Assembly (NCBI GenBank): GCA_944358945.1 | Contig: CALVSH010000087.1 | Location: 1-40,523, forward strand | Origin: an uncultured Bacilli bacterium | GTDB taxonomy: Bacteria > Bacillota_I > Bacilli_A > RF39 > UBA660 | Reading direction: 5' to 3' | DNA: 40,523 nucleotides | Shown: positions 1 to 21,896 of the stretch, one piece after another | Position numbering within the stretch: position 1 is the first letter of the stretch | Layout of the letters: every line of letters starts with the position of its first letter | Notes under the pieces: model-generated | Told to the model about the DNA's origin: nothing | Databases searched by the model: none | Seen by the model: only the letters and a program-made list of their open reading frames with translations | Translations under genes and position numbers: made by a program

Positions 1-205
1 CGAAATCAAAACTTCTATCATCATAAACTGAAATTTCAACTGGTAAAATATCTCCCATTTTATCTCTAGTAGCATCATTATACTTAGTACAAAAATCTTG
101 TAAATTAATTCCTGCAGGTCCTAATACAGTACCAACTGGTGGAGCTGGTGTAGCTTTTCCTGCTGGAATTTGTAATTTAATCTTCTTTATTGCTTCCTTT
201 GCCAC
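1..205 (-). CDS. rplK: Ribosomal protein L11 (N-terminal part, cut by window edge)
   Basis: Translation from a GTG at 205 gives [20 protein letters not shown], continuing through [15 protein letters not shown], the typical start of L11. L11 binds 23S rRNA in the GTPase-associated centre of the large ribosomal subunit. About 68 residues are present; the C-terminal half lies beyond position 1. An AGGAGGT Shine-Dalgarno at 213-219 supports the GTG start. The gene follows nusG, as in the common secE-nusG-rplK-rplA order, but has its own promoter and leader between nusG and its start. Identity is near certain. Confidence 0.96.
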
Positions 206-19170: not shown

Positions 19171-19833
19171 TTATATAATTTCAACGTCTTCTGAGTCATT
19201 TACATGAATAAGTTCTTTTTGTTTTTTTTCTTTTATCATTTTTCGTACCCTAACAACTTCCGTCAAAATCAAATATAAAAGTGGAAGCGCAATACATAAT
19301 ATCCAACCAAAATAAGTAGATAAAAACTTCCTAACATAACCTAACATAGGAATACGAAATAATACTTTACCATAAACATTCTCATCTTTAACCAAGGTTG
19401 CATCTGCAGCATTATTATTATCTCCCTTAGTACGATATAACAAAGTACCATCCTCTGCTTCTTTAATACCAATAATACGATGAGTAATAACTTTACCACT
19501 ATAATAAGAATCAGTCGCTAAAAAACTAATAATATCACCCTGTTTTAAATCCTCAGAATCCTTTCTCCCTACAATAATAGCATCTTGAACATTGATTGTT
19601 GGAACCATACTAGGAGTAACAATAATATAAGCATCAAATAAAGTCTGATTATCTTCAACAGAATTAATATTATATAATAAATCTATAAAATAAAAAATAA
19701 ACAATAAGAAAATTATAATTAACAAAAGAAAGATAACATATAGGACTACTTTTGTAAAAAAGCGTAAAAAAAACTGTACTACTTCTTTTACAGAAACAAC
19801 ATCATCATGATTAGTATCAAAATATTGTTTCAT
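19171..19833 (-). CDS. sipW: Signal peptidase I, SipW/ER type
   Basis: A 220-residue membrane protease. A cytoplasmic N-terminus and transmembrane helix (about 28-53) precede the catalytic domain. VTPSMVPTI contains the catalytic Ser, and KVITHRIIGI contains the His that replaces the Lys of ordinary type I peptidases, the mark of the ER/SipW type. YRTKGDNNNAADATLV follows, and a second transmembrane helix lies near 180-200. SipW releases TasA-like biofilm proteins in Bacillus. It lies just downstream of three TasA-like genes, its probable substrates. The ATG at 19833 follows AGGAGGG. Confidence 0.93.
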   Translation of the reverse strand: MKQYFDTNHDDVVSVKEVVQFFLRFFTKVVLYVIFLLLIIIFLLFIFYFIDLLYNINSVEDNQTLFDAYIIVTPSMVPTINVQDAIIVGRKDSEDLKQGDIISFLATDSYYSGKVITHRIIGIKEAEDGTLLYRTKGDNNNAADATLVKDENVYGKVLFRIPMLGYVRKFLSTYFGWILCIALPLLYLILTEVVRVRKMIKEKKQKELIHVNDSEDVEII

Positions 19834-19861
19834 ATAAGCCCTCCTATCTATTAACATTAAC

Positions 19862-19870
19862 ATGATAACA
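19862..19870 (-). promoter_or_regulatory. Extended -10 promoter candidate of sipW
   Basis: TGTTATCAT (TGn plus TATCAT) on the minus strand lies downstream of the preceding terminator. No convincing -35 box. Confidence 0.4.
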
Positions 19871-19900
19871 CGAAGGACAAAAAAAAACTAGGTTTTGAAT

Positions 19901-19927
19901 AAAAAAAAGAGAAGTTTACATTCTCTT
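19901..19927 (-). terminator. Terminator of the TasA-like gene 19926-20558
   Basis: A perfect 7-bp stem AAGAGAA/TTCTCTT (19921-19927 and 19907-19913) with loop TGTAAAC is followed by eight U. It includes part of the stop codon. Confidence 0.88.
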
Positions 19928-20558
19928 AAATAGCCTTCGCTGTAACATTCAATTTAATATTAAATTCTCTACTAACAGAATCAATAATAGCATTTTTATC
20001 TACCCAGAAACGCAATCGAAAAGCTTCCTGTATCTCCTTACTCTGATCAGTAGTATTAGAAAAAGTACCAGAATAAAGAACCATACTTCCAATTTTACTA
20101 CCTAAAAAACTATCAGAATCTAAAGGAGTAAATGGTTGTGGAACCTTAGTAATTGCAGTATCTACATATCCGTTAGATTCCAACTTTTGCAGATAAAGTT
20201 TAACCGATTGATTATCTAATACCAACTCATTTGACTCAGAATTAATTTTCTCTGCCGATATTTCATAATTAATAGTAGTATTAGGAGCCAAGACTGTTTG
20301 AACACTAAAGTCATAAACATTACCATCTCCACTCAACTGTTTTCCTTCTTCATCAGAAATAGGCATAGAATTTTTCATAGAAATTGCCTCACCCTGATTA
20401 TCTAATATTAAAGAAATAGTACCAGTAGACAAACCATTAGAATTAGAATCAGTTAAAACAGTAGTAAAAGCAGCATAAGAAACACCTACAAAAGCAATAA
20501 TTAATACTGCAATACATATAATAGATAAAATAATTTTTTTAGACTCAGATGCAATCAT
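19926..20558 (-). CDS. TasA/camelysin-like exported protein (paralogue 1)
   Basis: A 210-residue protein with an N-terminal signal sequence (KKIILSIICIAVLIIAFVG) ending in SYAAF, the kind of site cut by SipW-type peptidases. The mature part is predicted beta-rich: TGTISLILDNQGEAISMKNS, MPISDEEGKQLSGDGNVYDF, INYEISAEK, MVLYSGTFSNT, FRLRFWVDKNAI. TasA and camelysin form fibres in Bacillus biofilms; function here is inferred from family and the adjacent sipW. It shares a pattern with the next two genes (MPxSDxxGKxL, NYEI, LYSGT, LRxW). The ATG at 20558 follows GGAGG. Confidence 0.8.
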   Translation of the reverse strand: MIASESKKIILSIICIAVLIIAFVGVSYAAFTTVLTDSNSNGLSTGTISLILDNQGEAISMKNSMPISDEEGKQLSGDGNVYDFSVQTVLAPNTTINYEISAEKINSESNELVLDNQSVKLYLQKLESNGYVDTAITKVPQPFTPLDSDSFLGSKIGSMVLYSGTFSNTTDQSKEIQEAFRLRFWVDKNAIIDSVSREFNIKLNVTAKAI

Positions 20559-20583
20559 ATAAACCTCCAACTATCTTAAAATA

Positions 20584-20592
20584 ATTATAACA
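20584..20592 (-). promoter_or_regulatory. Extended -10 promoter of TasA-like gene 1
   Basis: TGTTATAAT on the minus strand lies just after the terminator of the preceding gene; no clear -35. Confidence 0.6.
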
Positions 20593-20603
20593 TAAAATTC
20601 GCC

Positions 20604-20627
20604 AAAAAAAGACTTCTTAAAAGTCTT
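20604..20627 (-). terminator. Terminator of TasA-like gene 2
   Basis: AAGACTT-TTAAG-AAGTCTT (20609-20627) is followed by seven U. Perfect stem. Confidence 0.9.
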
Positions 20628-20629
20628 AA

Positions 20630-21229
20630 TTAATTATCTGCCTTGCCATATACTTTTACAGAAACTGTATAAGTAGCATTAGAATCTGCTATTACAGCAC
20701 CTTCTCTTACCCACAATCTCAAACGATAATTATCAACTTTCTTAGAAGATACTTTAAACTTATCTAAAACCATTGACTTTGCTGGACTACCTAAATTTGT
20801 TTTTTTCTTGATAGGTGTAAAAGCACTAGGTTCTTCTACTTTAGCATAACTGCCACTATTTTGTTTCTCTAAATATACAACAACATCACTATCAGGAATA
20901 GTAGAATTCTCATCTTTAACCAAGGCAATTTCGTACTGAATTGAAGTATCATCTTCCACTTCTGAAGAAACAGAAAAATCAAAATAGCTACCTTCATCTC
21001 TTAAATCTTTTCCTGCATCATTCGACATTGGAGTCAAATTAGTAAGAGTAAATTCATTCGTAGCAGTTTTATAATTCATAGACACAACACCAGTTTTTAC
21101 AACTTCATTGACATTATCAGCTTGGCCTCTAAAAAACATAACAAAAGCAAATACAACAATGGCTATTAATAAAATACTAATACCTAATATAATAAATACA
21201 AGATTTCTAGTTTGATGATTATTTTCCAT
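20630..21229 (-). CDS. TasA/camelysin-like membrane-linked protein (paralogue 2)
   Basis: A 199-residue protein with a single N-terminal transmembrane segment (about 9-33, LVFIILGISILLIAIVVFAF) and a beta-rich extracytoplasmic domain. It shares with its neighbours TPMSNDAGKDLRDEGSYFDF, IQYEIALVKDE, VVVYLEKQ, MVLDKF and YRLRLWVREGAVI. The site after the helix (FFRGQADN) is not a clean signal peptidase site, so it may stay anchored. It starts 9 bp after paralogue 3 and both run from the promoter at 21868. Confidence 0.75.
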   Translation of the reverse strand: MENNHQTRNLVFIILGISILLIAIVVFAFVMFFRGQADNVNEVVKTGVVSMNYKTATNEFTLTNLTPMSNDAGKDLRDEGSYFDFSVSSEVEDDTSIQYEIALVKDENSTIPDSDVVVYLEKQNSGSYAKVEEPSAFTPIKKKTNLGSPAKSMVLDKFKVSSKKVDNYRLRLWVREGAVIADSNATYTVSVKVYGKADN

Positions 21230-21237
21230 AATTCCTC

Positions 21238-21843
21238 CTAATCAATCGTCTTAACATAAAGTGAAATATCAAAATCACGCAACTCTGTAGTAATTGGATA
21301 AGTATCTCTTAACCACATACGTAATTTAAACTTTTTCACTTCATCTTTTTTCAATGTTCCAGAATAAAGTCTTCGACCACCAGCATCACTAGATGCAACT
21401 TTCAAATCTTGAAACGTTGGCACACTTTTATCATTATATCCTTCTAACGGTAAATCTCGTTCACCATCTGTTAAATATACTTTTACATAGTCAGAAGGAA
21501 TCGTATTTTCACCTTCTTTAACCTTAGCATAAATTTCATAATTAACAGAACTTAAACCTACCATATTAGAAGAAATGCTAAACTCACTATAACTATATTT
21601 CGTTTGATCTGCCGAAAAAGTCAATTGTTTACCAATTGCATCAGTAATAGGCATAGAATTATCTACCTTCAATTCTGAAGATTGTTCAGAGTAAGAAAAC
21701 AAAATTGTTGCACTTCTAGAATTACCATCATTATTATGAAAATATAAATATAAACAAATAACTGAAATAAAAACTACAACAAACAATAATCCAATAAGAA
21801 GTACAAATGTCGGACGATGCTTATGATGCTTATTTTTCTTCAT
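21238..21843 (-). CDS. TasA/camelysin-like membrane-linked protein (paralogue 3)
   Basis: A 201-residue protein with a His/Lys-rich N-terminus (KKNKHHKHRP), one hydrophobic helix (about 13-33) and a beta-rich domain. The domain shows NSMPITDAIGKQLTFSADQT, VNYEIYAKVKEG, VKVYLTDGE, RRLYSGTLKKDE and FKLRMWLRDTYPI. The domain pattern matches paralogues 1 and 2. No obvious cleavage site follows the helix. It is first in a two-gene unit with its own sigma-A promoter. Confidence 0.75.
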   Translation of the reverse strand: MKKNKHHKHRPTFVLLIGLLFVVVFISVICLYLYFHNNDGNSRSATILFSYSEQSSELKVDNSMPITDAIGKQLTFSADQTKYSYSEFSISSNMVGLSSVNYEIYAKVKEGENTIPSDYVKVYLTDGERDLPLEGYNDKSVPTFQDLKVASSDAGGRRLYSGTLKKDEVKKFKLRMWLRDTYPITTELRDFDISLYVKTID

Positions 21844-21867: not shown

Positions 21868-21896
21868 AGAATACACTATTTTAGCACTTTTTTCAA
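21868..21896 (-). promoter_or_regulatory. Sigma-A promoter of the TasA-like gene pair
   Basis: TTGAAA (21891-21896) and TATTCT (21868-21873) are spaced by 17 bp on the minus strand. The -35 abuts the tatD stop codon. Confidence 0.78.

Follow-up and report, generated by a model that had tools for sequence, protein, structure and literature searches.

A candidate SipW-TasA-type export and assembly cassette with two apparently uncleaved TasA-like paralogues between tatD and rsmA in an uncultured Bacilli bacterium

What would a bacterium do with three related proteins carrying N-terminal membrane segments, only one of which has a clear cleavage site, encoded next to a signal peptidase in a block of core genes? 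This question is raised by a locus in contig CALVSH010000087.1 of an uncultured Bacilli bacterium (assembly GCA_944358945.1; hereafter, "the window" denotes the entire 40,523-nucleotide stretch analyzed), where three related genes, denoted A, B and C, and a gene for an endoplasmic reticulum (ER)-type signal peptidase, SipW, lie between tatD and rsmA. In the initial annotation, these genes were interpreted as a secreted fiber subunit with two membrane-held accessory subunits. We lean towards a similar answer, with some but not great confidence: the locus would be a SipW-TasA-type export and assembly cassette, in which SipW frees C, C polymerizes like TasA, and A and B serve as membrane-held anchors or nucleators.

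All four open reading frames (ORFs) are present on the minus strand within positions 19171-21843 of the window, which is contig C87 of an assembly of 1.30 Mb that is 68.9% complete. Gene A (21238-21843) encodes 201 amino acids (aa), with an N-terminal membrane helix lacking a signal-peptidase site; B (20630-21229) encodes 199 aa with a probable membrane anchor; C (19926-20558) encodes 210 aa with a SipW-type signal (SYA before the predicted cut, A after it) and is the probable secreted fiber subunit; and SipW (19171-19833) consists of 220 aa. Two starts were moved: the most likely start of C is the ATG at 20558 rather than the listed TTG at 20570, and that of SipW is the ATG at 19833, both with a GGAGG-type ribosome site upstream. 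In BLASTP comparisons, the paralogues matched one another with E values of 1.5e-9 (A-B), 6e-15 (A-C) and 6e-26 (B-C), B being the closest paralogue of C, and Smith-Waterman scores of the three ectodomain pairs (120, 144 and 197) far exceeded the maxima of 56-60 obtained in 500 shuffles each. Judged by sequence, the paralogy of A, B and C is real, their similarity exceeding chance. The assignment of the fourth gene to the ER-type signal peptidases is borne out by the match to TIGR02228 (103 bits, cut-off 51.85); the score against NF046067, the equivalog model of Bacillus SipW, is 92.1 bits, below the cut-off of 190. The blocks SPSMVP, THR and KGD(N/H)N occur together in 15 of the 16 SipWs from the genus (the window's genome and 15 congeners), and the window's protein, with TPSMVP, keeps the Ser and retains the PSM, THR and KGDNN blocks.

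The distinction between the paralogues that had been drawn from a single genome, with only one clear cleavage site, extends to the whole genus in a joint alignment of A, B and C from these 16 genomes. All C proteins keep Ser at position -3 and Ala at position -1. In B, position -3 is Ala (10 proteins) or Ser (6 proteins), and Ala -1 is found in none of the 16, being replaced by V, F, M, T, L, S or I. Ala -1 is likewise absent from all 16 A proteins, of which 15 have Leu at both positions and the remaining one has Phe at -1. All 16 A proteins also have a Cys within the membrane helix; the residue before it is Gly in 10 of the proteins and Ile in the window, and there is no clear lipobox. If A and B were freed by another protease or cut elsewhere, all three proteins could be structural fiber subunits, and the retention of Ala or Ser at -3 in B, together with loose A-X-A-like windows within the membrane helix of many B and some A proteins, is compatible with such processing; we nevertheless consider it improbable given the loss of Ala -1 from every B and the paired Leu residues in nearly every A.

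The stretch between the helix and the first strand differs as well. It is 5 residues shorter in A than in C (7 in one genome) and charged in B, so that the stretch that would form a donor strand in C appears to be missing from both A and B. In C, the residues that would follow the cut include Phe at +2 in 13 of the 16 proteins and, in 14, either Leu or Phe at +6. The donor region of TasA includes F29, I32 and F39 according to PMC9674648, and PMC10151520 places the start of mature TasA at residue 28, so that F29 of TasA also occupies position +2, like the Phe of C. One of the best-conserved columns holds a proline (P66 in C, P65 in A), and PMC10151520 counts P62 and F29 among the most conserved residues of TasA; any correspondence of the residues of C and A to F29 and P62 is tentative.

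The phylogenetic tree suggests how the uncleaved paralogues might have originated. B clusters with a sequence from another genus of the family, G028b (support 99/91), then with G032a (99/91) and G019d (82/85). The latter two keep Ala -1 (SFAVY and SFATI, respectively), and G028b has Ile at this position; because G032a and G019d seem to be cleavable, B probably descends from a cleavable ancestor. A clusters with G028a (99/90, on a long branch), which likewise lacks the site. Under the simplest history, the site would have been lost once, before the split of G028 from the window's genus, B probably having been converted from a cut to an uncut form and A perhaps as well. As far as these sequences can tell, loss of the cleavage site inside a TasA-like family is a new point of the present analysis.

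The fold comparison called for by the initial annotation came out modestly in favor of the proposed relationship. AlphaFold2 models of C and A, for which proteins of the window and of the loci, B included, were aligned (44 rows for C and 32 for A), reached a predicted local distance difference test score of 88.6 each and predicted template modeling (TM) scores of 0.73 and 0.75, respectively; each shows one N-terminal helix and, after it, a beta sandwich. With VIA-align, on which the fold assignment relies rather than on Foldseek, the TasA fiber 8aur ranked first for C (Z 7.5, root-mean-square deviation 3.6 Å over 139 aligned residues; next match at 6.3) and also for A (Z 7.4, 3.3 Å, 133 residues), where the next match, at 6.7, is within 1 Z. 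The matches of A further included the TasA monomer 5of2 (Z 5.8), TLP-1a 9ikj (Z 5.7) and, weakly, the archaeal bundling pilus of Pyrobaculum calidifontis, 7ueg (Z 5.5), none of which is among the 50 matches listed for C; a structural relation of these archaeal pili to TasA is suggested in PMC10151520. Structures of TapA and CalY are not among the matches listed by VIA-align, which excludes nothing. The models thus lend weak support, with modest Z values, to a TasA-type beta-sandwich fold of C.

The cassette is also conserved. A search of 60 genomes with C yielded matches in 25, the window's own included: all 15 congeners, with three copies each, 9 of 21 genomes from other genera of the family, and none of the 23 genomes outside the family. 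In all 15 congeners, the three copies adjoin SipW, and the order tatD-A-B-C-SipW-rsmA is retained in 14 of these loci, the contig of the fifteenth (G007) starting at A. A version of the cassette also resides beside tatD in seven other genera (G019, G024, G028, G029, G032, G091 and G165, the last two chosen from the best matches of a family-wide search), and is hence old at this slot. The reported position between tatD and rsmA is correct, but the description of the cassette as inserted in a core block, made against the arrangement of genes found there in Bacillus, is loose. Both tatD and rsmA flank the cassette in five of the seven genera (G024, G028, G032, G091 and G165); the G029 contig ends within SipW, and in G019, rsmA is outside the stretch examined and an unrelated opposite-strand ORF splits the TasA-like genes. 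These seven loci hold 2 to 5 TasA-like genes along with SipW. Downstream of SipW, five of them (loci L052, L053, L054, L111 and L112) encode three additional proteins, of 170-183, 229-231 and 146-200 aa; the trio is missing from G028, and the G029 contig stops before it could be reached. It is also absent from the window's genus, which carries a stripped form of the cassette. The 170-183-aa protein is TasA-like by eye, BLAST having matched only that of G165. The two other genes of the trio encode membrane proteins, and by eye, three of the five short TasA-like proteins after SipW also seem to be without Ala -1.

The expression of the cassette can be approached through its spacers. The initial annotation had postulated three promoters and three terminators; all three promoters are supported, along with two terminators, after B and after C. 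In the window, a TTGAAA-17-TATTCT promoter precedes A (21868-21896), and extended -10 elements precede C (TGTTATAAT, 20584-20592) and SipW (TGTTATCAT, 19862-19870). Terminator-like hairpins are found 3' of B (20609-20627, U-tract 20603-20608) and 3' of C, overlapping its last bases (19907-19927, U-tract below 19907), all on the minus strand. A stock promoter and terminator scan, which accepts only stems with 3 or more G-C pairs, gave no excess over shuffles. This rule is strict for AT-rich DNA and was loosened to 2 pairs after hairpins had been seen by eye in the window, whereupon a hairpin followed by a T run was detected in 13 of 16 B-C spacers (0.4 in single-base shuffles), 11 of 16 C-SipW spacers (0.5) and none of 15 tatD-A spacers. 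The zero for A-B is trivial, these spacers (8-10 nucleotides, nt) being too short for a hairpin, and the zeros for SipW-rsmA are partly so, given that 4 of the 16 spacers are shorter than 5 nt or negative owing to start choice. The letters of the stems vary between genomes while pairing is kept (for instance, AGAGGA/TCCTCT and AGAAGTG/CACTTCT). Among spacers of at least 30 nt, a limit that removes 2 of the 15 tatD-A spacers, a TTG(A/C)-16..18-TANNNT promoter precedes A in 11 of 13 (0.3 in dinucleotide shuffles), and an extended -10 element, TGNTATNAT, precedes C in 14 of 16 and SipW in 16 of 16 (0.4 in shuffles for each); rsmA apparently has its own weaker element, TGNTANNNT, in 11 of 12 (3.7 in shuffles). 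Coming from related genomes of one genus, these promoter and hairpin counts express conservation, not independent trials. Three promoters and two terminators suggest the transcription units A-B, C and SipW, in line with the separate units proposed initially; with a promoter before each of A, C and SipW and a hairpin after each of B and C, A and B would share a unit.

The promoters bear on another possibility, namely, that the product of the cassette is an appendage or coat component of the spore surface rather than a vegetative fiber. Spo0A is encoded in all 16 genomes of the genus, yabG-like and spoVG-like genes are neighbors of the cassette, and the name of TasA itself denotes a spore component (PMC10151520). 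The conserved motifs, TGNTATNAT and TTGAAA-17-TATTCT, are of vegetative rather than sporulation-sigma types, and we regard a role in the spore as quite improbable.

From the sequence, its conservation and the predicted fold, we infer the following course of export, cleavage, polymerization and anchoring for the favored fiber cassette. C would exit via Sec, and SipW would cut it after SYA; the freed N-terminus (AF...) would act as a donor strand, so that C would polymerize as TasA does. A and B, being uncuttable, would remain in the membrane, at the cell end of the fiber, as acceptors or nucleators tethering it to the cell, because A has only a shortened, and B a charged, version of the would-be donor stretch. 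How much C is made relative to A, B and SipW would be governed by the separate promoters and the two terminators, which are probably leaky. Precedents exist: according to PMC9674648, PMC10151520 and PMC13082335, SipW is linked with TasA-family genes in Bacillus subtilis and Bacillus cereus, and TasA fibers form via N-terminal donor strands.

The tapA-sipW-tasA operon of B. subtilis resembles the present locus in that an ER-type SipW is encoded together with a beta-sandwich protein of TasA-like type that has a Phe near its mature N-terminus, as well as with an accessory protein, putative in the present case. The locus described here differs in having three TasA-type paralogues, two of them seemingly uncleaved, in three units instead of one operon, and at the tatD-rsmA position; no TapA-like gene was seen in the cassette, TapA itself not having been searched for. 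According to PMC10151520, TapA undergoes cleavage and contributes its own N terminus as donor. A and B, in contrast, appear uncleaved and lack the donor segment, so that any accessory role of theirs should rest on another mechanism. The sipW-tasA/capP/calY locus of B. cereus is similar in combining more than one TasA-family subunit with sipW in separate transcription units (PMC13082335); there, TasA and CalY are both structural and CapP is the assembly factor.

Several observations weigh against this interpretation. The principal one comes from G028, a genome that is 94% complete and has A-like, B-like and SipW genes at the locus but no cleavable copy there. A profile search of this genome detected three weak relatives elsewhere, one of which is anchored (C5:146176, E 1.8e-6), another lies near a second SipW-like gene and has a signal ending, by eye, in AYA (C1:64004, E 0.0013), and the third is a match inside a 665-aa frame (C1:23503, E 0.017). 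The secreted subunit of G028 may be encoded elsewhere, or A and B may have a role of their own. The latter would be expected if A and B stood outside any fiber, as membrane-held surface domains acting alone (sensors, or binders of the wall or the host), with SipW as a general ER-type peptidase for C and other exports. The window's genome indeed encodes additional anchored relatives, each standing alone next to housekeeping genes, in C50 and C55, other SipW-type signals occur in the C78 cluster, and SipW-like genes without the catalytic His are present in C36 and C78, so that SipW may serve several substrates. We nevertheless assign this explanation a clearly minor, if appreciable, share of the probability, given that A and B accompany C and SipW in every congener and that the A model matches the TasA fiber about as well as the C model does.

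The affiliation with TasA itself is also open to criticism. No Pfam or NCBIfam model names A, B or C; in particular, PF12389 (Peptidase_M73) has no match in the window's genome at an E value of 0.001, and NF046066 (TasA) reaches only 3 of 44 family members, with a best E of 0.02. A profile of the ectodomains alone, comprising 34 of the 44 sequences of the full, helix-containing alignment, retrieved no chains from the PDB and so gave no sequence-level match to TasA. The helix-containing profile does match archaeal pilins (6nav, E 1.4e-4; 8tib, E 2e-4), as it might if these were type IV pilin-like proteins that assemble through their N-terminal helices; because the match vanishes with the ectodomain profile, a relation to archaeal pilins was rejected, and with no prepilin site seen either, assembly of this kind is very hard to credit. 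All VIA-align Z values are below 8, a range where common folds can turn up, and for A, the TasA match is tied with an integrin. Foldseek alone puts other jelly rolls and beta sandwiches first, those of a sugar-binding module, a virus coat, an Eph receptor and an integrin, all at low TM-scores, and its superposition may suffer from the long helix. Only some of the genomes have a hydrophobic residue at +5 of C, although most have one at +2 and at +6, and the promoter and hairpin motifs were counted on the same sequences from which they were chosen, so that the counts do not amount to a blind test. Neither of the two outcomes that would have refuted the fiber cassette was encountered: the predicted folds of C and A are not unrelated to that of TasA, and the paralogues are not absent from close relatives.

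SipW itself has an unusual feature. From the likely start, all 16 SipWs of the genus begin with MK(Q/E)Y(F/L)D, after which comes a loop with an EF-hand pattern (in the window, DTNHDDVVSVKEV, 19780-19818, minus strand), located before the first membrane helix, which suggests that the loop is cytoplasmic. Among 415 ORFs of the loci L037-L066, the PS00018-type pattern matched 15, all of them SipWs of congeners, compared to an average of 0.45 in 20 shuffles; the SipWs of six other genera (G019, G024, G028, G029, G032 and G035) lack the loop. No Pfam EF-hand is listed for SipW up to an E value of 10, but HMMER filters drop short weak matches. Like the loss of the cleavage site, this EF-hand-like loop on SipW appears to be a new point of the cassette. 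A more specific scenario, which we put forward as speculative and rather doubtful, is that A and B, having lost both the site and the donor strand, are acceptor-only anchors that take the donor strand of C and hand none on, with a polarity opposite to that of TapA, and that SipW is tuned by Ca2+ or Mg2+ via the loop.

Of the other peptidase genes in the window's genome, that in C42 is an ordinary signal peptidase I, and the two SipW-like genes in C36 and C78, lacking the catalytic His in the alignment, possibly encode pseudo-peptidases; they adjoin genes for proteins with SipW-type signals or for a large surface protein (L065 = G000:C36, L104 = G000:C78). In congener G008 (L085, contig C3), one intact SipW is accompanied by one with altered Ser and His blocks.

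The surroundings of the cassette and its more distant relatives complete the picture. On the minus strand of the window, the genes run metS, an ORF of 78 aa, tatD, A, B, C, SipW, rsmA, yabG, a gene resembling veg, and spoVG, and in five of the seven other genera (G019, G024, G029, G091 and G165), a 3D-domain-like gene follows tatD. Apart from SipW, these names (metS, tatD, rsmA, yabG, veg, spoVG, 3D-domain, and DUF177, rpmF and aspS below) are the identities that we presume from recognition by eye; a comparison of the loci showed that identical gene blocks recur in different genomes. The TasA-like family, which has no curated model, is represented in 82 of 145 genomes of one family of uncultured bacteria at an E value of 1e-6, and 10 of the 145 have at least 21 scored matches. 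In other genera of the family, at L109 (G117), L110 (G176) and L064 (G027), the TasA-like domain is the N-terminal part of large multi-copy proteins of about 400 to 1200 aa; these resemble a repertoire of surface proteins whose export relies on SipW-type signals. Another locus, L063 (850-5698, G022:C11), encodes six tandem proteins of 255-277 aa with similar SipW-type signals (mostly ATFAYF), in which the last residue is Cys. The two anchored relatives in the window's genome (L101, 4524-5117, and L102, 4126-4839, in C50 and C55) adjoin DUF177/rpmF-like and aspS-like genes and have counterparts in G008 (L107 and L108) according to the tree. A search of viral contigs for relatives of C gave 8 pattern matches and no relative, and tblastn of a phage collection gave no match. 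None of the titles listed from the open-licence literature describes the cassette, which does not imply its absence from print.

Even in Bacillus, how SipW-TasA fibers stay attached to cells is largely a matter of inference. The present locus, where secreted subunits seem to have turned membrane-held by loss of the cleavage site, offers in C and B a clean pair for testing. The EF-hand-like loop, if it binds metal, would subject a signal peptidase to a kind of control that one would not expect. The host family appears, from the name of one congener, to be gut-associated, and surface fibers of this kind could matter for colonization.

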